This document shows, piece after piece, positions 129-12,028 of a stretch of 64,000 nt of DNA. A program made the position numbers and the translations under genes. Every line of letters begins with the position of its first letter. Position 1 is the stretch's first letter. The notes below the pieces were generated by a model. It was not told the origin of the DNA, made no database searches, and worked only from the letters and a program-made list of their open reading frames with translations. Source of the stretch: Acholeplasmataceae bacterium (lineage in GTDB: Bacteria > Bacillota_I > Bacilli_A > ML615J-28 > CAG-698); contig DUTX01000093.1 in NCBI GenBank assembly GCA_012841865.1, positions 1 through 64,000 of the forward strand, read 5' to 3'.

Positions 129-204
129 GGCTCGGTAGCTCAGTTGGTAGAGCAATGGACTGAAAATCCATGTGTCGCCGGTTCGATTCCGGCCTGAGCC
201 ACCA
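129..204 (+). tRNA. tRNA-Phe (GAA), integration target
   Basis: A complete 76-nt tRNA. The acceptor GGCTCGG pairs with CTGAGCC, the anticodon loop is CTGAAAA (GAA), the T arm holds GGTTCGATTCC, and CCA is encoded at 202-204. Its 3' part (157-205) recurs perfectly at 5192-5240, which marks it as the attachment site of an integrated element. The gene itself stays intact at the left junction, and the operon's likely terminator now sits 5 kb away at 5247-5270. Confidence 0.97.
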
Positions 205-205
205 T
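157..205 (+). repeat. attL: tRNA-Phe 3' end, left 49-bp copy
   Basis: This is the tRNA-Phe segment from the anticodon stem (GGACTGAAAATCC) through CCA plus one T. It is identical over 49 bp to 5192-5240; the match breaks at T156 versus A5191 and at C206 versus T5241. Tyrosine integrases commonly cross over within such tRNA arms. Confidence 0.95.
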
Positions 206-273
206 CGACTAGAAATCAGTTCTTAATCATTCTTTTTTGAATGATTTTAATTTTAAATTTATATATGTAAAAA

Positions 274-349
274 TTGCATATGCAAATAATGCATATTTAT
301 AATATCATACAAAATTTGGAAATGCAAGCACTTTATGCAATTTTTGCAT
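274..349 (+). promoter_or_regulatory. Promoter and operator array of the element regulator
   Basis: TTGCAT (274-279) and TATAAT (298-303) are 18 bp apart. The -35 lies inside the perfect palindrome TTGCATATGCAA (274-285). The half-site ATGCAA or TTGCAT recurs at 322-327, 335-340 and 344-349, the last two forming ATGCAA-TTT-TTGCAT. Such spaced symmetric sites next to a Cro/CI-like gene suggest autoregulation; the assignment of the binding protein is inference. Confidence 0.6.
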
Positions 350-374
350 TAAAATTTGGAAAAGGAGGTTCATT

Positions 375-578
375 ATGGCCGAAAGATTAAGAGAAATAAG
401 AAAATTAAAAAAATTAACACAAGAAGATTTAGCAAAATACCTAAACTTAAATCAATCGCAAATTGCAAGATATGAAAAGGGTGAATTAAGTTTAAACGCT
501 AATCTTATCAAAAAAATATGCTTATATTTTAATATTTCTGCAGATTGGTTGTTAGGCTTAAAAGATAATTTTAATTAA
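375..578 (+). CDS. Cro/CI-type (XRE) transcriptional regulator
   Basis: A 67-residue protein made almost entirely of one helix-turn-helix domain, with residues 15-36 (LTQEDLAKYLNLNQSQIARY) matching the HTH_3 pattern. The start follows AAAGGAGG with good spacing. There is no peptidase or dimerisation tail, so it resembles a Cro-like protein or a short element repressor. It is the first plus-strand gene inside the left end of the tRNA-Phe element, with symmetric ATGCAA sites upstream, so it probably controls the element's gene expression. Confidence 0.85.
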   Translation: MAERLREIRKLKKLTQEDLAKYLNLNQSQIARYEKGELSLNANLIKKICLYFNISADWLLGLKDNFN

Positions 579-593
579 TTAAAGGAGATAAAA

Positions 594-1153
594 ATGGGGA
601 TTTGCATTAAATGTGGAAACGAATGTAAAGATAATCATAAGTATTCTATAGAGTGTTATAAAAAAGCACAAAATTACTGCATATTATGCAGCAATCCATT
701 ATTCGAAAACGATAATTTTATTGATTACAAAGAAATGAATTAATATGCGAAAAATGTTTTGAAATAATATATAAAAAAATAAATAAATATATTCCCACAC
801 ACAAAGCTACAGATGGACACTGGGTCAGATCTAGAGGAGAAATGATTGTAGATAATTACTTTTTTACCAATAATATATCACACATTTATGAAAAAAAAGT
901 TTTTAATAAAAATAACCCAGAAGAAAATTGCACATGCGATTTCTATATTCCAAAATATAATGCTTACATTGAAATATGGGGTTATGAGGACGACCCAAAA
1001 TACGAAGAACAAAAAATATTCAAAGAAAAAATATATCAATCCAACAACATAAAAATAATAAATATATACCCTAAAAATATTGATTCAGGAATTGATGATT
1101 TTTTAATAAAAGAACTATTAAAATACGAGAGCTTGATTAAGCTCTTTTTTTAA
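594..1153 (+). pseudogene. Zinc-ribbon PD-(D/E)XK-type nuclease, frame broken near 725-743
   Basis: The first frame (594-743) starts after AAAGGAG and encodes 49 residues with C4/C7/C11, C21 and a CILC pair, ending in TAA. The -1 frame is open from 725 and continues with ICEKC, completing a CxxC...CxxC ribbon. It then reads ATDGHWVRSRGEM, CDFYIP and YIEIWG, ending at 1153. That pattern (VRS-x-E, DFY, E-x-W) resembles a family of small PD-(D/E)XK-like nucleases that follow zinc ribbons. The join needs a -1 shift between 725 and 740, where I see no classic slippery heptamer, so mutation or sequencing error is most likely. The ATG at 842 lies within the conserved motif and is unlikely to be the true start. 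Confidence 0.65.
1129..1151 (+). terminator. Terminator inside the nuclease 3' end
   Basis: GAGCTT-GATT-AAGCTC followed by seven T forms a compact intrinsic terminator overlapping the last codons of the nuclease frame. It separates it from the convergent integrase gene, whose stop overlaps at 1150-1152. Confidence 0.75.
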
Positions 1154-1965
1154 TAAGGATATATAAGATCATATTTCTCTCGCATATATTCATCATCCAA
1201 ATGTAAATATATACGAGTAATATTATAATTACTATGTCCTAAAATATTAGCAACATCTTCTATTCCAGCACCATTTTTCAACATATTAGTCGCTAAGCTG
1301 TGACGAAGAACATGAGATGAAAATTTTTTTAAATTTAAATCCTTTTTTACTTTTTCAAAAATTCTTCGAATAATAGAATATGTAAGCTTACATCCAAAAA
1401 GATAATGTCCTTTCAAAGAAAAATTTTTTAAAAGTTCATTAGTAAATGATGATAAATAGACAATCCTTTCCTTATGATTTTTAGTTTTTTTAAGGCATAT
1501 AAGGCCCAAATTTGCATTATAATCAGTTTTCTTTAATGCCATTAATTCAGACAACCTTATACCTGTGTCAATAAAAACAAACATAATTTGAGTGTTTCTA
1601 ATAGATAATAAAGAATTATAATTAAGATTTACAAGCAAATATTTTTTTATTCTTTTAATTTCTAAAGCAGAAAGATAATCGAATCGATTGTTATTTTCTC
1701 GCAATTTAGGAATATTCTCAAATTCAAAATTAAAAAATTTTAATAATCTTTTCATTAAACCAATTCTTTTATTAATAGTATTGTTAGATAAACCTTTCTG
1801 TTTCATTAATCGAATAAGATCATAAAAGTTAATCTGATTTAATGAAACATCACCAAGATACGAAAAAAGGGCATTTAAATGCACCTTTTCAAATTCATAA
1901 GTTCCACGTGATTTCATAACAAGACTATTTTCTAGATATTTTTTAATAGACTCTTCTAGTTTCAT
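1150..1965 (-). CDS. Tyrosine recombinase / integrase
   Basis: A 271-residue XerC/D-like integrase. The N-terminal part (about 1-95) is a SAM-like core-binding domain. The catalytic domain shows R137 in DTGIRLSEL, a Lys in the beta-hairpin near 160, H218-x-x-R221-H222, H244 in LGHSN and the nucleophile Y253. All catalytic residues are present, so the enzyme looks intact. The start follows GAGGTGAG. It lies at the end of a minus-strand series of element genes. It is the obvious candidate to integrate and excise at the tRNA-Phe 3' end. Confidence 0.95.
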   Translation of the reverse strand: MKLEESIKKYLENSLVMKSRGTYEFEKVHLNALFSYLGDVSLNQINFYDLIRLMKQKGLSNNTINKRIGLMKRLLKFFNFEFENIPKLRENNNRFDYLSALEIKRIKKYLLVNLNYNSLLSIRNTQIMFVFIDTGIRLSELMALKKTDYNANLGLICLKKTKNHKERIVYLSSFTNELLKNFSLKGHYLFGCKLTYSIIRRIFEKVKKDLNLKKFSSHVLRHSLATNMLKNGAGIEDVANILGHSNYNITRIYLHLDDEYMREKYDLIYPY

Positions 1966-2019
1966 ATTCTCACCTCTACATATATAATAGCATTTTTTAC
2001 CAATTTACCCAAATTCCTA

Positions 2020-2298
2020 TTAAACTATTTCTTTTTTCTTACGATTCTGAATCTTATCTTTAAAATGCTTAATCATTTTAACTCGTGCTTTTCTTTTAGC
2101 AATCTCAACCAAAAATGCAATAAAACCTAAAACTAAAACAATAATAAGCCAAATCCACCATGTTTGTTTAAAAGCATTTTTTATTCCCTCGGCCAACGAT
2201 TCAGAAAAATTCCTCATAATTTCGGAATCGCAACCAGAAATTACAAAAAGCATTAAAAATAAAACAAAAATTAATAAAAATTGCTTAATTCGTTTCAA
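2020..2298 (-). CDS. Small lipoprotein-like membrane protein of the element
   Basis: A 92-residue protein with an N-terminal signal sequence ending in a lipobox-like VISGC (Cys23), a short polar stretch, then a second hydrophobic segment (about 47-64, WWIWLIIVLVLGFIAFLV) and a very basic tail. It begins with TTG after GGGGGTGA and overlaps the stop of the preceding gene by 4 nt, so the two are translationally coupled. I do not recognise the family. A membrane role such as exclusion, or assistance to a helper element, is conceivable but unproven. Confidence 0.72.
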   Translation of the reverse strand: MKRIKQFLLIFVLFLMLFVISGCDSEIMRNFSESLAEGIKNAFKQTWWIWLIIVLVLGFIAFLVEIAKRKARVKMIKHFKDKIQNRKKKEIV

Positions 2299-2540
2299 AA
2301 ATTCACCCCCAAAGATGATATTTCAATACGCTCAACCAAACTCTCAAACTTAGCCGGAACAACAACATTTAAATAATCAAGAATTGAATCTAATTCCTCT
2401 TCTCTATACTGTCTTGCTTTAGCAAAATCAGCACACAAATATACTTCTCCTTCATCATCTACTTCATAAACATATTCCCTTAAAAAATTGCCTTTATCAA
2501 CTTCAAACAAAATTTCAATAATAAACCTATCAACCATCAT
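2295..2540 (-). CDS. Unknown 81-residue element protein
   Basis: A small acidic protein with no recognised motif. It starts after GGGAGG at 2540 (a second ATG follows at 2537). Its start overlaps the stop of the 410-residue gene, and its stop overlaps the start of the lipoprotein-like gene. This tight coupling supports it as real. No function can be assigned. Confidence 0.7.
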   Translation of the reverse strand: MMVDRFIIEILFEVDKGNFLREYVYEVDDEGEVYLCADFAKARQYREEELDSILDYLNVVVPAKFESLVERIEISSLGVNF

Positions 2541-3769
2541 TTAATCCTCCCTTCCATATAAAACAAAAGCAAATCAAAAAAAGAAACCTCATACTTGTTT
2601 TCACCATCGAAATAAAGCATTTCAAAAAAAGGAAAATATTCCACTTCAAGGCAGAATTCTACATATTTAACTTCGGACTCATCCAAATACATCCTCACGA
2701 TGCCATTGTCAGACCATTCACATTTGACAACATAATCTTTGAACTTGTCCCGATAATTATCAAGAAGATTCCAATATTCCCCAGGAAATTTATTAAAAAC
2801 AAAATTATCAAGAAAATCAGCAAAGGATCCAGATTCCAAAACACCAAAAAACTCATCATTCCCAACAAATTCAGCATTTCCCACTACTTCTCCGGAAGCA
2901 ACAGGAATTTGTCCATCGCTTCCGGATGAAGCTTCTTTTTGGTCAGACGTCTGACCATTTTCAATTTCTTCTTTTAAAACATCATTAACATGATCATAAA
3001 ACTTCTCATCAATAATTTTTTTAAAATCCTCAAAATCCTTTACTTCCGGCCAACCGAAATTCCTTAGATAACCAACATAGATATAAATACCACGATATTT
3101 TCTAAAATTAACATTAATTTCTAACAAAGATTTCCTTTTATAACGAAATAATACTTGAGAAGAACCATCCTTTATATTTTCCAATTTATAATTAACAGAA
3201 TATTTAACTTCCGGAAATTTTTCAGACAAAAATTTTACAACATAATTAACAGATTTATTTATAAAAGAATCTGAATCATCTCTGTTAAGTAAAGATTCAT
3301 ATAACTTTTGAATTTTATCATTAAATTTATTTTCACGTATTTTTCTGACAGACATTTCAGGAGTATATTTATCTAAATCAATTTCCGGGACAGATAAAAG
3401 TTCAACAAGCTGAGAATAACCAAACCCAGAATATTCTTCTTTTAATTTCACAGCATAATATTCATTATAATTAGAAACATCACAAAATCTATCAGCTATA
3501 CCAATCATATTTTTTACAGTCGTTTTCGCAAGCTCAAATTCATTAAATGCATATTCATATATATTTTTATAACCAACAAATTTAAAAATTTGATTCTTTT
3601 TAATATAATATAATCGAACAGCAATATTAAGATAATTATCAAAAACATTATCAAGAAATTTCCTAATAGAAAGAGTTAACTGATCATACTTTCTTGATAC
3701 TTCAAAAACATCATTGACATTTTCAAAATTAACTGCAGAATTCATATCATATTTTATTATTTCATTCAT
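2537..3769 (-). CDS. Large unknown element protein, DNA-binding-like N-terminal half
   Basis: A 410-residue protein and the largest gene of the element. Residues about 30-100 are helical, with a FVGYKNIYEYAFNEFELAKTTVK stretch reminiscent of phage and ICE proteins that carry an HTH-like segment. It is followed by YSQLVELLSVPE...TPEMSVRKIREN, a pattern I associate with Clostridia mobile-element proteins. A low-complexity, acidic Ser/Gly linker (about 283-315) leads to an acidic C-terminal domain with many Tyr and Phe. It starts after AGGAGAG and begins 2 bp after the 60-residue gene ends. It may be a replication or partition protein, but that is inference. Confidence 0.75.
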   Translation of the reverse strand: MNEIIKYDMNSAVNFENVNDVFEVSRKYDQLTLSIRKFLDNVFDNYLNIAVRLYYIKKNQIFKFVGYKNIYEYAFNEFELAKTTVKNMIGIADRFCDVSNYNEYYAVKLKEEYSGFGYSQLVELLSVPEIDLDKYTPEMSVRKIRENKFNDKIQKLYESLLNRDDSDSFINKSVNYVVKFLSEKFPEVKYSVNYKLENIKDGSSQVLFRYKRKSLLEINVNFRKYRGIYIYVGYLRNFGWPEVKDFEDFKKIIDEKFYDHVNDVLKEEIENGQTSDQKEASSGSDGQIPVASGEVVGNAEFVGNDEFFGVLESGSFADFLDNFVFNKFPGEYWNLLDNYRDKFKDYVVKCEWSDNGIVRMYLDESEVKYVEFCLEVEYFPFFEMLYFDGENKYEVSFFDLLLFYMEGRIK

Positions 3770-3771
3770 TT

Positions 3772-3954
3772 TTATCTCTCCTGAATATTCTCAATTATTT
3801 TCTGCTGCAATTCTTCAAGACTTTTAATCGCAAAACGACTTAGATAACCTTGTTCCCTTCTAATGCTGGAATCAATAAGCCATAAGATTCGCTGAAGAGA
3901 AAAACCATCAAGTTCAATCTGATAACGTTTCAAAACATCAATAGGAACTTCCAT
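3772..3954 (-). CDS. Unknown 60-residue element protein
   Basis: The chosen start is the ATG at 3954, because AAAGGAGGT lies 6 nt upstream of it; the longer frame from 3978 would read through that binding site. The product (MEVPIDVLKRYQIELDGF...) is helical and charged. It is the first gene of the minus-strand run that continues into the 410-residue gene. The family is not recognised. It is transcribed divergently from the small RNA unit at 4005-4123. Confidence 0.7.
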   Translation of the reverse strand: MEVPIDVLKRYQIELDGFSLQRILWLIDSSIRREQGYLSRFAIKSLEELQQKIIENIQER

Positions 3955-4004
3955 GATCTTACCTCCTTTTTGTATCAAAAATTAAATTTAAAGCATAATA
4001 TTTA

Positions 4005-4033
4005 TTGACATTCAATTTTTTTCATGTTAAAAT
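4005..4033 (+). promoter_or_regulatory. Promoter of small RNA cassette 1
   Basis: TTGACA (4005-4010) and TAAAAT (4028-4033) are separated by 17 bp. The spacer carries ACAT...ATGT symmetry shared with the promoters at 4956 and 5101. No open reading frame with a ribosome binding site follows before the terminator at 4095-4123. Confidence 0.7.
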
Positions 4034-4039
4034 AAACAA

Positions 4040-4123
4040 AGTCATGCATAAGACTATAAAATTTGCAAGCTGCATAATTATTTATTATGCAGGCGCAGTA
4101 GTTTAAAACTACTGCCTTTTTTT
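4040..4123 (+). ncRNA. Candidate small RNA 1 of the element
   Basis: A roughly 85-nt transcript is predicted between the promoter at 4005-4033 and the terminator at 4095-4123. It would hold a perfect 9-bp stem (CTGCATAAT 4070-4078 with ATTATGCAG 4084-4092) followed by the terminator hairpin. The 3' end is antisense to the last codons of the minus-strand frame ending at 4109. I do not recognise an RNA family. Confidence 0.55.
4095..4123 (+). terminator. Terminator of small RNA cassette 1
   Basis: GCAGTAG (4095-4101) pairs with CTACTGC (4109-4115) around TTTAAAA, followed by C and a T7 run. The stop codon of the minus-strand reading frame (4109-4111) lies within this hairpin. Confidence 0.8.
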
Positions 4124-4584
4124 ATTATAATCATCTACTTCTTTAAGCAATTTCTTAACTTCCGAAGTATCAATTTTTTCATTTAACCTAGATTCATAAA
4201 AATTATAATATTTTAAAGGACGTTTGTATCTATCCTTAGAAATAGTCTTCAATTTCAAAAATGTTTTCCGATTATTACTTAAAGACTTAATTGGTCTTCT
4301 TACACCACTTCTAGAATGAGTAATAAGATTTACTGAAGAATTATTTTTTTATCAGTTCTATAAACCAAATAATGATGTATCTGACCATGATCAGAATACA
4401 TGTAAGCCATATTCACATCAGGCATCATTAAAACATTTCCGGGTTCTTTTAAAAAATTTAACCTCTTCAATTCTAAATAAGCTTTTCTCCTTTGACCAGG
4501 AGAACAATTTTTATTTTTAACCATAAATTGATTAATTCTAATTTTATCAATTATCTTTTTCGAGCGACCCAAATCAATTCCCAC
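4109..4584 (-). pseudogene. Unknown element gene, split by a frameshift at an A7 run
   Basis: The first frame (4330-4584, up to 84 residues, SPGQRRKAYLELKRL...HHYLVYRTDKK) ends in TAA just after an A7 tract at 4344-4350 (minus-strand sense). In the -1 frame, translation would run on without a stop to 4109 (NNSSVNLITHSRSGVRRPIK...), giving a basic protein of about 158 residues. The second part lacks any start codon with a ribosome binding site, which favours a single original gene. GTG 4584 sits almost on its SD; TTG at 4572 has AGGTGG at better spacing. Transcript slippage on A7 could also restore the frame. Confidence 0.55.
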
Positions 4585-4587
4585 CTT

Positions 4588-4699
4588 TCACATTTCTAAA
4601 ACATTAAGCTCTTCCGGCTGAGTATTCTCAAAATAATAGGCGAATTCCACAAAATCCCACAAAACACTCACCAGGCAATTTGCCTGAATTTTTTTTCAT
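4588..4699 (-). pseudogene. Small frame interrupted at an A8 run
   Basis: An ATG at 4699 is preceded by TAGAGGT at good spacing and followed at once by A8. The zero frame gives only a 23-codon peptide. The other frame, reached by losing one A, encodes a plausible acidic peptide (CLVSVLWDFVEFAYYFENTQ...) ending at 4588, directly before the next gene. A GTG at 4671 could start a 27-residue version. Either a frameshift or slippage is needed for the full frame. Low certainty. Confidence 0.35.
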
Positions 4700-4727
4700 A
4701 AATTAACCTCTATAGAATGAATTTTAA

Positions 4728-4907
4728 TCATTTTCTTTCCCCCTTAACATTAGGTAAATATTTAATCAAAGATTCTTTAAGTTCTTCAAGATTTTTAATT
4801 TCATGCTTTTTAAACAAAGAAGAATAATTAGCATACTGCAGCGAAAATATGCGATTATCAATAAGATCGATTATCTTTTTTGCATTATTTTCAGAAATTA
4901 CAATCAT
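4728..4907 (-). CDS. Unknown 59-residue element protein
   Basis: An open frame starting MIVISENNAKKIIDLIDNR and ending KGERK. It is helical and charged, with only a weak upstream GAAGAA. Its TGA overlaps a following ATG in ATGA fashion (an 11-codon peptide), and it points the same way as the rest of the minus-strand element genes. The family is not recognised. Confidence 0.55.
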   Translation of the reverse strand: MIVISENNAKKIIDLIDNRIFSLQYANYSSLFKKHEIKNLEELKESLIKYLPNVKGERK

Positions 4908-4955
4908 ATAATTCTTCTTTCATGTATCATATTTATTTTAATTTCATAAAATATA

Positions 4956-4984
4956 TTGACATTAAATTTTTTTAATGTTATCAT
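4956..4984 (+). promoter_or_regulatory. Promoter of small RNA cassette 2, with palindromic spacer
   Basis: TTGACA (4956-4961) and TATCAT (4979-4984) are 17 bp apart. The spacer contains a perfect inverted repeat, ACATTAAA-TTTT-TTTAATGT (ending at 4978), a probable operator. It lies between divergent units: this RNA and the 59-residue gene. Confidence 0.68.
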
Positions 4985-4990
4985 ATTTAT

Positions 4991-5082
4991 GCCCACGTTG
5001 GTTAATCCACAGTTTACTATCTCAATTAGTAAACGCCGGGCGAATCGTAAGGGCTTCACAAAAAGTGAAGTTCCTTTTTTTT
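4991..5082 (+). ncRNA. Candidate small RNA 2 of the element
   Basis: A transcript of about 90 nt from the 4956 promoter to the terminator at 5051-5082. It can fold into a compact three-way shape: GCCC (4991-4994) with GGGC (5038-5041), TGG (4999-5001) with CCA (5007-5009), and a 7-bp stem GTTTACT (5012-5018) with AGTAAAC (5028-5034), followed by the terminator. No coding frame of note is present, and I do not recognise an RNA family. Confidence 0.5.
5051..5082 (+). terminator. Terminator of small RNA cassette 2
   Basis: CTTCAC (5054-5059) pairs with GTGAAG (5065-5070) around five A. The outer GG/CC pairs extend it, and a T8 run follows. Confidence 0.8.
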
Positions 5083-5100
5083 ATTTTTTTTCGATTATTG

Positions 5101-5129
5101 TTGACATAAAATTTAACATATGTTAAAAT
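5101..5129 (+). promoter_or_regulatory. Outward promoter at the right end of the element
   Basis: TTGACA (5101-5106), 17 bp, TAAAAT (5124-5129), with ACAT and ATATGT half-sites in the spacer. It points toward attR 60 bp away. An AAAAAAGC/GCTTTTTT terminator (5146-5170) follows after about 15 nt, so the transcript is either about 35 nt long or attenuated read-through. In the excised circle this promoter would face the regulator gene at 375. Confidence 0.62.
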
Positions 5130-5145
5130 TTATTAGGCTAGGTAG

Positions 5146-5170
5146 AAAAAAGCCGAAATTTGCTTTTTTT
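5146..5170 (+). terminator. Short terminator after the outward promoter
   Basis: AAAAAAGC (5146-5153) pairs with GCTTTTTT (5162-5169) around CGAAATTT. It lies between the promoter at 5101 and attR. Confidence 0.6.
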
Positions 5171-5191
5171 GGGGATTTTTTCCTACTGCAA

Positions 5192-5240
5192 GGACTGAAA
5201 ATCCATGTGTCGCCGGTTCGATTCCGGCCTGAGCCACCAT
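5192..5240 (+). repeat. attR: partial tRNA-Phe copy, right 49-bp repeat
   Basis: This is a perfect copy of 157-205 without the 5' half of a tRNA, so it is not a functional gene. It is followed 6 bp later by a strong terminator (5247-5270), which fits the original end of the tRNA operon. That places the right border of the inserted element here. Confidence 0.95.
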
Positions 5241-5246
5241 TAGAGA

Positions 5247-5270
5247 AATGCTATGGTAATAGCATTTTTT
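5247..5270 (+). terminator. Displaced tRNA operon terminator
   Basis: AATGCTAT-GGTA-ATAGCATT followed by T4 and more, starting 6 bp after the tRNA-Phe 3' copy. Before integration this would have sat directly behind tRNA-Phe; the element now separates them. Confidence 0.8.
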
Positions 5271-5307
5271 GTTTTTCCTCTCCTCAAAAAGGTTTATTTT
5301 TAAAAGC

Positions 5308-7312: not shown

Positions 7313-7340
7313 TGACAGTTATTTTAGGCTATAGTAAAAT
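7313..7340 (+). promoter_or_regulatory. Promoter of the DUF2779 gene
   Basis: TTGACA (7313-7318) and TAAAAT (7335-7340) with 16 bp between. The gene start at 7368 is 28 bp downstream. Confidence 0.7.
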
Positions 7341-9225: not shown

Positions 9226-11128
9226 AATTTGGGAATTCAATAATTTCGGTTTGTTCGAAATTATTATCGTAGGAAGCAATATTGGTATTATTTAAAGCAA
9301 AAATTTTCTTGTTATTTTCGTTTACAATAATTCTTATCGGATAAGATCCTTCAGAAAATTCAAATTTTGTTTGTTTAAAAGTTTCGGTTTCCGGATTAAT
9401 CTCAAAGAGTAAATATTCACCTTTGGAAAGATTGAAGTTTGTAACAGCAAAGCCGAGATAATACTTACCAAGAATATTTGCTGTAAAGATGGCGTTGCGA
9501 TTATTTATTGCTTCAATAACCGGAAAGTAACTAAAATCACTGTACTTGATTTTGAAACTTTCCTGCATCCAAGGCCTGATTCCTTCCGAATCAACGCTAT
9601 AGAAATTGAGTTTATATCCTGCTGTAGTTGAGTCGGCATTGATGGTAAAGGCAATGTTTTCGTTAAGCGGGCAAAAGAAGAGATTTGAATTCTCGCCTTC
9701 GATAATGTTTTCCAATCGCGGTTGACTGGGATTATTGAGACTAATTTGGTAAAATCTGTCGTTAGTGGTCAAGGCATGGGCCTTGGGGCCGTCAAAACGA
9801 ACGCCCGCAAGGTGTTCATTTTTGCTGATATCATAGGAGCTAATTAGCTTCATTTGTTTAGTTCTTGTGCCGGTTTCTTTTAAAACTAAAATTTTATTAG
9901 TAAAGTCTGCCGGTACGATTTTTGTTTGAATAAGGTTCTTGGTTATCTTATAATCAACGACAGAAATTGCAATTCTGAAATAGCCGTTATATTCATCGCA
10001 AGCCCCCTTATTTAAAGTGTTTCCTTTGAATTTCACAGAAGTAGAATAATTTAGTCCACCTTTAAGATTATAACGGATGATGGCCGTATAGGCTCCGTAT
10101 TCTAGTTTATCGTCTGAATTTTGGTGATTGTTGATCAGATATAGACTGTTTTCGGAAAGGTAAAATTGTTTCCAATCATCATAAGATAAAAGAATAACCT
10201 CTTCGGAAGTAATTGTTTTCTGCAATTCTAAACAAGTAATAATTGTATAAGCCTCGCCACCAAAGCCGCTGATATATGCAATATTGCTGGCATTAATTTC
10301 TTTCTGAAGGTTTTTTTCCCAAATCTCCGGCAAAGGAATTTCACTATTATTGTTCAGATAAACGTTTAAAGGAATCTGATTAAATATGTAAAGTTTATTT
10401 TTAATCAGATAAGAATCAAGGTAATTTCCGGCAACACTATATTCATAGATTTCATTAAAGTGTTTATCGAGAGTGATTACCTTTGTGATTTTTTCAATCT
10501 CTTGTTCGCCCAGATAAAATTCGGTGTAAATTACTGTCAAGTAATCTTCGGTAAAATGCATTTCAGCAATTCCACCCGAATTATTAGAAGCAAGCCGTTT
10601 TGTATAAACGAGATTTAGTTTGTCGCTCCTTGCATCAATAATATTAAGGGCTTTCGGAGATACTGTGAAAATAAAATTATTCTGTGCCTGGACGGTGATT
10701 GCTTCTTCAAGATATTCGTTGATGGTATATTGTTGATGTTCCGGCAAGCGCATATCAAATAGATTTTGTTCGACTTTAAAGAGAGTAAAATTATTGCTCT
10801 TTCGATAGTCAAGTTCGTAAAGTTTATTTTCCTCGTAGTTTTCTTTGATATACTCACTGATTTCGGATGTATCGCTAAAATAAGACAAATAATAATCTCC
10901 AAGCAAGAAATTGTCGCGATAATTGTTATCGGTTGTAAAGATAGTGAGGGCAATAACAAACAATAAGACATAGAGGGGAGCGAAAACAAACTTTTTCTTT
11001 AAAGGGTTGAGCGAAACTTGCTCAGTTTTTTGTTGCCTTCGGTAGGCATAGGGTTTTATTCGCTCATAGATATCAGGAATATCGTATTTCTCGGTTCTTA
11101 ATCTATGTTTCCATTCTTTGAGTTTCAT
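9224..11128 (-). CDS. Membrane-anchored beta-propeller protein, probable anti-sigma partner
   Basis: A 634-residue protein. Residues 1-46 are basic and cytosolic, one membrane helix spans about 47-64, and the large extracellular part matches the Beta_propel family (C-terminal repeats such as VRFDGPKAHALTTNDRFYQISL). Its gene starts one base after the ECF sigma gene ends, so the two form an operon. Bacillota often pair such propeller proteins with ECF sigma factors, where the short cytosolic segment restrains sigma. The sensed signal is unknown. Confidence 0.85.
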   Translation of the reverse strand: MKLKEWKHRLRTEKYDIPDIYERIKPYAYRRQQKTEQVSLNPLKKKFVFAPLYVLLFVIALTIFTTDNNYRDNFLLGDYYLSYFSDTSEISEYIKENYEENKLYELDYRKSNNFTLFKVEQNLFDMRLPEHQQYTINEYLEEAITVQAQNNFIFTVSPKALNIIDARSDKLNLVYTKRLASNNSGGIAEMHFTEDYLTVIYTEFYLGEQEIEKITKVITLDKHFNEIYEYSVAGNYLDSYLIKNKLYIFNQIPLNVYLNNNSEIPLPEIWEKNLQKEINASNIAYISGFGGEAYTIITCLELQKTITSEEVILLSYDDWKQFYLSENSLYLINNHQNSDDKLEYGAYTAIIRYNLKGGLNYSTSVKFKGNTLNKGACDEYNGYFRIAISVVDYKITKNLIQTKIVPADFTNKILVLKETGTRTKQMKLISSYDISKNEHLAGVRFDGPKAHALTTNDRFYQISLNNPSQPRLENIIEGENSNLFFCPLNENIAFTINADSTTAGYKLNFYSVDSEGIRPWMQESFKIKYSDFSYFPVIEAINNRNAIFTANILGKYYLGFAVTNFNLSKGEYLLFEINPETETFKQTKFEFSEGSYPIRIIVNENNKKIFALNNTNIASYDNNFEQTEIIEFPN

Positions 11129-11928: not shown

Positions 11929-12028
11929 TTAAAACCCTTTTTTTGATTTTTCCATTCTTTTATGGACTTTTTATTTTGAGAGTGCTATAATAAATATAAT
12001 TTAAGTTATTCTTTGTTTTGAGGTAGTA

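Follow-up and report, generated by a model that had tools for sequence, protein, structure and literature searches.

Positions 157 to 5240 of contig DUTX01000093.1 from an Acholeplasmataceae bacterium hold a small integrative element in a tRNA-Phe gene. We put the chance at about even that it is a helper-dependent satellite, or hitcher, of a lineage of integrating elements. Members of this lineage carry a replication protein (Rep) of the HUH type and an export-type ATPase; since the element has neither, a helper-dependent satellite appeared the most likely reading. With its own replication and export genes missing the element is therefore probably either moved by a helper or a stripped-down remnant. 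The window analysed comprises the 64,000 nucleotides from the start of this contig (C53) in an assembly of 1.95 Mb (189 contigs, 98% complete, 5.6% contaminated).

The element is bracketed by 49-bp direct repeats (157–205 and 5192–5240), which are identical at 49 of 49 positions and delimit a unit of 5,035 bp. The left repeat is the 3' part of the tRNA-Phe gene (129–204). The insertion site has the following features:

129–204, plus strand: intact tRNA-Phe (GAA), the target gene, restored by the left end of the element (tRNA call and alignment with genome G001)
157–205, plus strand: left attachment repeat, 49 bp, beginning within the anticodon stem (tRNA position 29)
225–254, plus strand: AT-rich hairpin with T-run (AATCATTC-TTTTTT-GAATGATT), probable replacement terminator for the tRNA operon (read from the sequence; G-C pairs too few for the terminator scan)
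5192–5240, plus strand: right attachment repeat, 49 bp, same sequence as the left one
5241–5275, plus strand: original terminator of the host tRNA operon, a homologue of which follows the empty site in G001

The empty site was found in G001 of the same genus (locus L006) and in G026 of the same family (L007), where tRNA-Asp, tRNA-Phe, a terminator and a HAD-hydrolase gene follow one another with no insert; the same HAD-hydrolase gene lies downstream at the element's site. When the joined flanks were aligned to G001, the sequence past ...GCCACCAT (TAAAATGCTAT..ATAGCATTTTTTTG) matched the window immediately to the right of position 5240, and the hairpin at this place is therefore the host's own operon terminator. 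By its integrase, its repeats of the tRNA 3' end and the empty site in relatives the element is, as judged from sequence, an integrative element inserted site-specifically and recently. Since the right repeat is a nonfunctional fragment, the absence of mismatches in it suggests that the insertion is young. An earlier preliminary description of this stretch, which had reported the perfect repeats, the insertion in tRNA-Phe and the operon terminator just past the right repeat and had proposed the search for empty sites, was borne out in all these respects. The outcome that it had named as refuting, an insertion present in every strain, did not arise.

Three proteins form the backbone of the element:

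375–578, plus strand: helix-turn-helix (HTH) regulator of the Cro/C1 type, 67 amino acids (aa), with an RstR-like NCBIfam match below cut-off; best relative in the set, the regulator of the L036 provirus
1150–1965, minus strand: tyrosine integrase, 271 aa
2537–3769, minus strand: 410-aa protein of the family phrog_15077, with an N-terminal domain modelled with high confidence and similar to ParB/Noc DNA-binding domains

The integrase (PF00589, E 6e-29; phrog_1, E 1e-44) and the Cro-like regulator (PF01381, E 6e-16) are both intact, as described earlier. The former would integrate the element and presumably also excise it, and the latter may keep it silent. Repeated TTGCAT/ATGCAA elements upstream of the HTH gene (277–350) are probably a separate operator set for this repressor. 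A profile search with the 410-aa protein, recommended in the preliminary description, gave a match to phrog_15077 (E 1e-19), a viral family without known function.

Kin of the 410-aa protein were recovered only with the PHROG profile and with N-terminal domain alignments as queries. Single-query searches with this protein or the integrase in viral contigs, and with the 410-aa protein in genome contigs, yielded no relatives; the protein occurs in no other genome among 43 of the order. Among 395 genomes of the class the integrase had no relative at E < 1e-40 besides itself, and nothing related to the DNA of the whole element was found in phages and plasmids. The kin recovered, from the class and beyond, lie in G053 (L036), G298 (L035) and G187 (L037, itself adjoining a tRNA-Phe gene); others are found near further RNA genes, L050 by a tRNA-Thr, L053 by another tRNA-Thr and L056 by a tmRNA gene. 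Family members are also encoded by viruses, namely by L003 and L061, two genomes of the inovirus type, and by the larger phage contigs L004, L062 and L063, counted as tailed phages from their size and gene content.

L036, a provirus of some 16.8 kb in a tRNA-Arg gene of G053, a genome of the same class, has 51-bp attachment repeats that also begin in the anticodon stem and encodes Rep_trans and a putative P-loop ATPase. In the set of related elements it was the best match for the HTH regulator (E 1e-10), the integrase (3e-24) and the 410-aa protein (6e-27). Most of the non-phage kin encode an HUH Rep of the Rep_trans, Rep_OBD-helicase or G2P type, and several carry a large P-loop ATPase outside every Pfam family, often with an integrase gene nearby; L035 and L050 have both Rep_trans and the ATPase. 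In a tree of the 410-aa family the protein of the window grouped with that of L036 (support 92/90) and then with L035 and L050 (80/87), the tailed-phage group standing apart (92/93). Because the branches are long, only this coarse placement is claimed.

The similarity of all three backbone proteins places the element in a lineage that already exists among the integrating elements of Bacilli and Clostridia, one with rolling-circle Rep and ATPase, and the "new class" considered in the preliminary description is therefore unsupported. The lineage is organised around the tyrosine integrase together with an HTH repressor and a DNA-binding protein that is DUF3102-like and ParB-like, and several members sit at tRNA or tmRNA genes. 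The provirus of G053 (L036/L049) and its kin L035, L037, L050, L053 and L056 resemble the element in the integrase and the 410-aa family protein, several of them in the insertion at a tRNA or tmRNA gene and, with exceptions, in the HTH regulator. In contrast to the element they carry an HUH Rep, and most also the ATPase and secreted proteins; the element, about one third the size of L036, has none of these.

As a side result, L035, L036/L049, L050, L051, L053, L056 and L057 emerged as an integrating family, several of them next to tRNA or tmRNA genes, which shares an HUH Rep, a P-loop ATPase of 430–760 aa without Pfam family, secreted proteins and the 410-aa protein. They may be filamentous-type viruses of Bacilli and Clostridia that have so far gone unrecognised. 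In G053 the L036 provirus is preceded at a short distance by another, similar integrase gene (L049:4140–4985; L036:12557–13405), which suggests tandem proviruses.

Searches of the element with Pfam, PHROGs and NCBIfam revealed no Rep, primase, AlpA, terminase, relaxase or capsid protein. A rolling-circle replication initiator is absent by Pfam and PHROGs, and no open reading frame (ORF) of the element had a Pfam or PHROG match to a Zot/pI-type morphogenesis ATPase. Likewise, the markers of integrative conjugative and mobilizable elements (relaxase, coupling protein, type IV secretion system; Pfam, NCBIfam) gave no match, nor did those of phage-inducible chromosomal islands (PICIs), P4-like satellites and PLE satellites (AlpA/Stl, primase, terS, psu/sid/delta, capsid-remodelling genes; Pfam, PHROGs, NCBIfam). 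The earlier statement that every phage hallmark is lacking thus held in Pfam, PHROGs, NCBIfam and PADLOC, but has to be qualified by the 410-aa protein, a member of a viral family.

In L035 the gene order is ATPase-Rep-p410-(small ORF)-integrase, and similar in L050 and L056. In the element the region upstream of the 410-aa gene is instead occupied by modules of RNAs and small ORFs:

4005–4033, plus strand: promoter P1, TTGACA-17-TAAAAT, with a TTGACAT..ATGTTA palindrome
4040–4122, plus strand: RNA1, structured, with its own terminator, fold z-score -3.75
4956–4984, plus strand: promoter P2, TTGACA-17-TATCAT, also with the TTGACAT..ATGTTA palindrome
4991–5080, plus strand: RNA2, structured three-way junction and terminator, fold z-score -4.64
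5101–5129, plus strand: promoter P3, TTGACA-17-TAAAAT, with the TTGACAT..ATGTTA palindrome, directed outward through the right attachment site
5136–5239, plus strand: RNA3, tRNA-like chimera with a GGCTAGGTAG start and an odd D-arm region, followed by the anticodon arm, T arm and CCA of tRNA-Phe from the repeat

These promoters are the three best matches of the region (11/12, extended -10), and their common palindrome pattern has just two further occurrences in the assembly. They may be co-regulated and would each yield a small structured RNA, in one case a tRNA-like chimera. Three RNA cassettes had been described previously; RNA1 and RNA2 proved self-contained, but for the third (fold z-score -0.81) neither a fold nor a separate terminator within the element was convincing, its transcript continuing through the tRNA remnant to the host terminator. 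At its predicted start, G5136, RNA3 opens with GGCTAGGTAG, which matches the first ten bases of tRNA-Phe at nine positions, and this 5' end can form six of seven acceptor pairs with the tRNA remnant in the right repeat. By post hoc estimates, such a match has a chance of about 3e-5 to fall in a start window of five bases; when the 150 bases to the left of the repeat were shuffled 20,000 times, a match of this quality arose in 9 cases. RNA3 was not called as a tRNA by ARAGORN or Rfam and the canonical D arm is absent; Rfam has no family for any of the three RNAs. In the circular form RNA3 would read across attP to the left-end hairpin. At the far attachment site of L036 a mimic of the tRNA 5' half was looked for and is absent, so that RNA3 is so far known only from this element. 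Antisense targets of RNA1 and RNA2 were sought in the element, contig C110 and the nearby chromosome, and nothing but the RNAs themselves scored above shuffles.

The modules also bear on the alternative that the element is a deletion remnant of a larger filamentous-virus-like provirus, which lost Rep, ATPase and surface genes, kept integrase and regulators and is decaying in the rest. The kinship of the backbone to larger proviruses, the two split ORFs and the moderate ORF coverage would fit such an origin. Against it, the position of Rep and ATPase is taken by ordered, repeated promoter-RNA-small ORF units and not by fragments of lost genes, the integrase, HTH and 410-aa genes are intact, and the identical repeats speak for a recent insertion. 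We regard a remnant as a possible but less likely explanation.

The 410-aa protein could be modelled confidently for residues 15–165 (predicted local distance difference test score 91). In a structure search of this domain against the PDB about half of the 35 matches were ParB, Spo0J or Noc, among them ParB-parS and Noc-site complexes, each with E above 1; matching viral predicted structures were DUF3102 proteins and one Inoviridae protein. Sequence searches gave no match to ParB or Noc, and in contrast to the ParB/Noc/KorB proteins neither a ParB CTPase domain nor a ParA was found. The model thus weakly suggests a DNA-binding fold of the ParB/Noc type. A Foldseek search with the full-length model was uninformative and, since model confidence is low, without meaning. 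A further likeness to ParB, Noc and KorB is a candidate site inside the protein's own gene:

2940–2957, no strand assigned: perfect 18-bp palindrome TGGTCAGACGTCTGACCA within the 410-aa gene, candidate binding site of the 410-aa protein

The 16-bp core of this palindrome occurs nowhere else in the 1.95-Mb assembly, even with up to two mismatches allowed. Homologous genes contain palindromes as well: GGTCAGACGTCTGACC in L051, GGTCCGACGTCGGACC and GTCCGATATCGGAC in L035, GTCCGACGTCGGAC in L036, CAAAGTCAGTTGACTGACTTTG in L037, GGTCAGTTGACTGACC in L056 and ATTCCGATGTCGGAAT in L003, and GTTGCACCGGTGCAAC is common to the genes of phages L004 and L062. The four integrating kin L035, L036, L037 and L056 share this feature with the element. 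Reading phase and position in the gene vary among several of these palindromes. Compared with synonymous-codon shuffles, palindromes are enriched in 16 genes of the family (combined Fisher p 1.5e-8); the same test gave 0.12 for integrase, 0.07 for Rep and 0.31 for ATPase control genes, and two of the outliers among the controls are L050's own motif copies, one at the start of the integrase gene. By this test the palindromes within the family are non-random. The 410-aa protein may well bind the palindrome in its own gene, and the other family members theirs. L050 has three copies of TTCCGA(C/T)GTCGGAA, at 7314 just before the ATPase gene, at 9415 inside Rep and at 11981 at the start of the integrase gene; the motif also occurs inside the 410-aa family gene of inovirus L003. 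In five viral contigs GGTCAGACGTCTGACC also turned up, each time at one intergenic site that resembles a terminator and belongs to a single phage type; this occurrence is unrelated.

Inoviridae such as bajarodino virus 17 (PQ006181; L061) encode a 410-aa family protein like the element, and integrated, tRNA-sited inovirus proviruses are known (PMC6813254); the element, however, has no Zot/pI ATPase, no Rep and no recognisable coat protein. The phage-inducible chromosomal minimalist islands (PICMIs) of Vibrio (PMC10803314) are likewise very small, have an integrase, a regulator and defence cargo and no capsid genes, and provide a capsid-less precedent, since integrase, regulator and primase suffice them for helper use. 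PICMIs, however, carry AlpA and primase and target fis, whereas the element lacks both and targets tRNA-Phe; of the integrase, alpA and primase that define a PICMI (model of PMC10803314) it has the integrase only. RS1 of CTXphi demonstrates that filamentous phages have satellites (PMC11389934), and the subthreshold RstR-like match of the element's regulator recalls it, but the element has neither a Rep nor RS1 genes. Both are precedents for helper use by elements without a capsid of their own, but they are analogies and do not imply membership.

A satellite of a tailed phage with a PICI- or PICMI-like lifestyle, moved by transduction, would account for the small size, the integrase, the regulator and the defence-type nuclease cargo, and DUF3102-like proteins occur in tailed phages too. 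We consider this improbable, as AlpA, primase, terS and other satellite markers are missing, the 410-aa protein falls outside the tailed-phage clade and the assembly has no convincing terminase (one weak partial match).

For the helper-dependent satellite of the integrating lineage we propose that a related virus-like element would supply replication and transfer. Calling the element a minimal element or phage satellite, as was done earlier, was reasonable and is still the best reading. Several observations weigh against a helper-dependent satellite. No helper with shared sequence was found, nor does the assembly contain a Rep_trans gene. Contig C110 is the one inovirus found there; it has no stretch of at least 16 nt in common with the element, and no sign of a common origin or packaging signal was seen. 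Its candidacy as helper by shared sequence is unsupported, and it is a candidate in principle only. Since neither a second copy nor a relative of the whole element was found, its conservation as a unit is unproven. Two of its ORFs are split, which suggests decay, and members of the 410-aa family also occur in the tailed phages L004, L062 and L063. The C110 inovirus itself (L048; G000:C110, 1–5575) is complete and circular (5,448 bp, 127-bp terminal overlap), encodes Zot (PF05707) and a G2P-type Rep (PF05144) and no integrase, and may be resident in this host or mis-binned.

A more far-reaching version appears doubtful to us. In it, the element would be the first satellite of a filamentous-virus-like lineage in Bacilli to carry an integrase, without Rep, ATPase or capsid gene; a ParB-like protein would control it through the palindrome that lies within the gene of this protein, and its co-regulated small RNAs would include a tRNA mimic made complete by the half of the host tRNA at the attachment site. 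RS1 uses the host XerCD and is not known to have an integrase of its own. If helper dependence is true, it would lower the known minimum for such elements and extend them, in a part of the Bacilli from which little has been cultured, to helpers of the filamentous type. The palindromes would give a DUF3102-like viral family, seldom named in the literature searched, a testable function in site-specific, possibly self-regulating, ParB-like DNA binding, and the chimera at the attachment site is a concrete, testable case of an element reusing a displaced tRNA half.

The remaining genes of the element are:

594–743, plus strand: zinc-ribbon ORF, 49 aa, first half of a split gene
740–1153 (about), plus strand: PD-(D/E)XK nuclease domain in another frame than the zinc-ribbon ORF, GHWVRSRGE motif not preceded by a start codon; broken or frameshifted
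2020–2298, minus strand: predicted lipoprotein or membrane protein, 92 aa, of no family, with a strongly basic tail and a lipobox apparent in the sequence
2295–2540, minus strand: 81-aa ORF between the 410-aa gene and the integrase gene, no family (Pfam, PHROGs)
3772–3954, minus strand: 60-aa ORF, divergent from RNA1, weakly similar to the 59-aa ORF (E 0.05, small set) and possibly its paralogue
4109–4584, minus strand: split ORF (4330–4584 and 4109–4258), -1 shift at an A7 run, no family
4728–4907, minus strand: 59-aa ORF, divergent from RNA2

The nuclease half matched PADLOC PDC-S69 (E 1e-28) and HEAT_CxxC_PDDEXK (3e-13). The nuclease noted in the preliminary description is accordingly confirmed in its identity, but not as a single open frame; it is a candidate defence nuclease of the PD-(D/E)XK type with a broken frame. 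Both gene splits are of the -1 kind and fit programmed frameshifting and the loss of one base alike. As the recognisable functions are integration and cargo only, the element might be a self-contained islet with a defence nuclease, spread by natural transformation or generalised transduction and served by no dedicated helper. In such an islet the regulated promoters, the RNAs and the large DNA-binding protein would be superfluous, and we give this explanation little credence.

The 92-aa ORF has the shape of a small coat protein with signal peptide, transmembrane segment and basic tail, yet it contains a lipobox and has no homologue in Pfam, PHROGs or the kin set. An apparent homologue of the 59-aa ORF in L004 was discarded, being in the wrong frame inside another ORF. 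Small basic proteins with the motif EKxxYYxxRxxDxxLSxxQRxYAxxR are encoded in L036 (3145–3804), L050 (5450–6980) and L057 (7845–8165), in tandem in L036 and L050; the similarity of a split 84-aa ORF of the element to these proteins was not significant.

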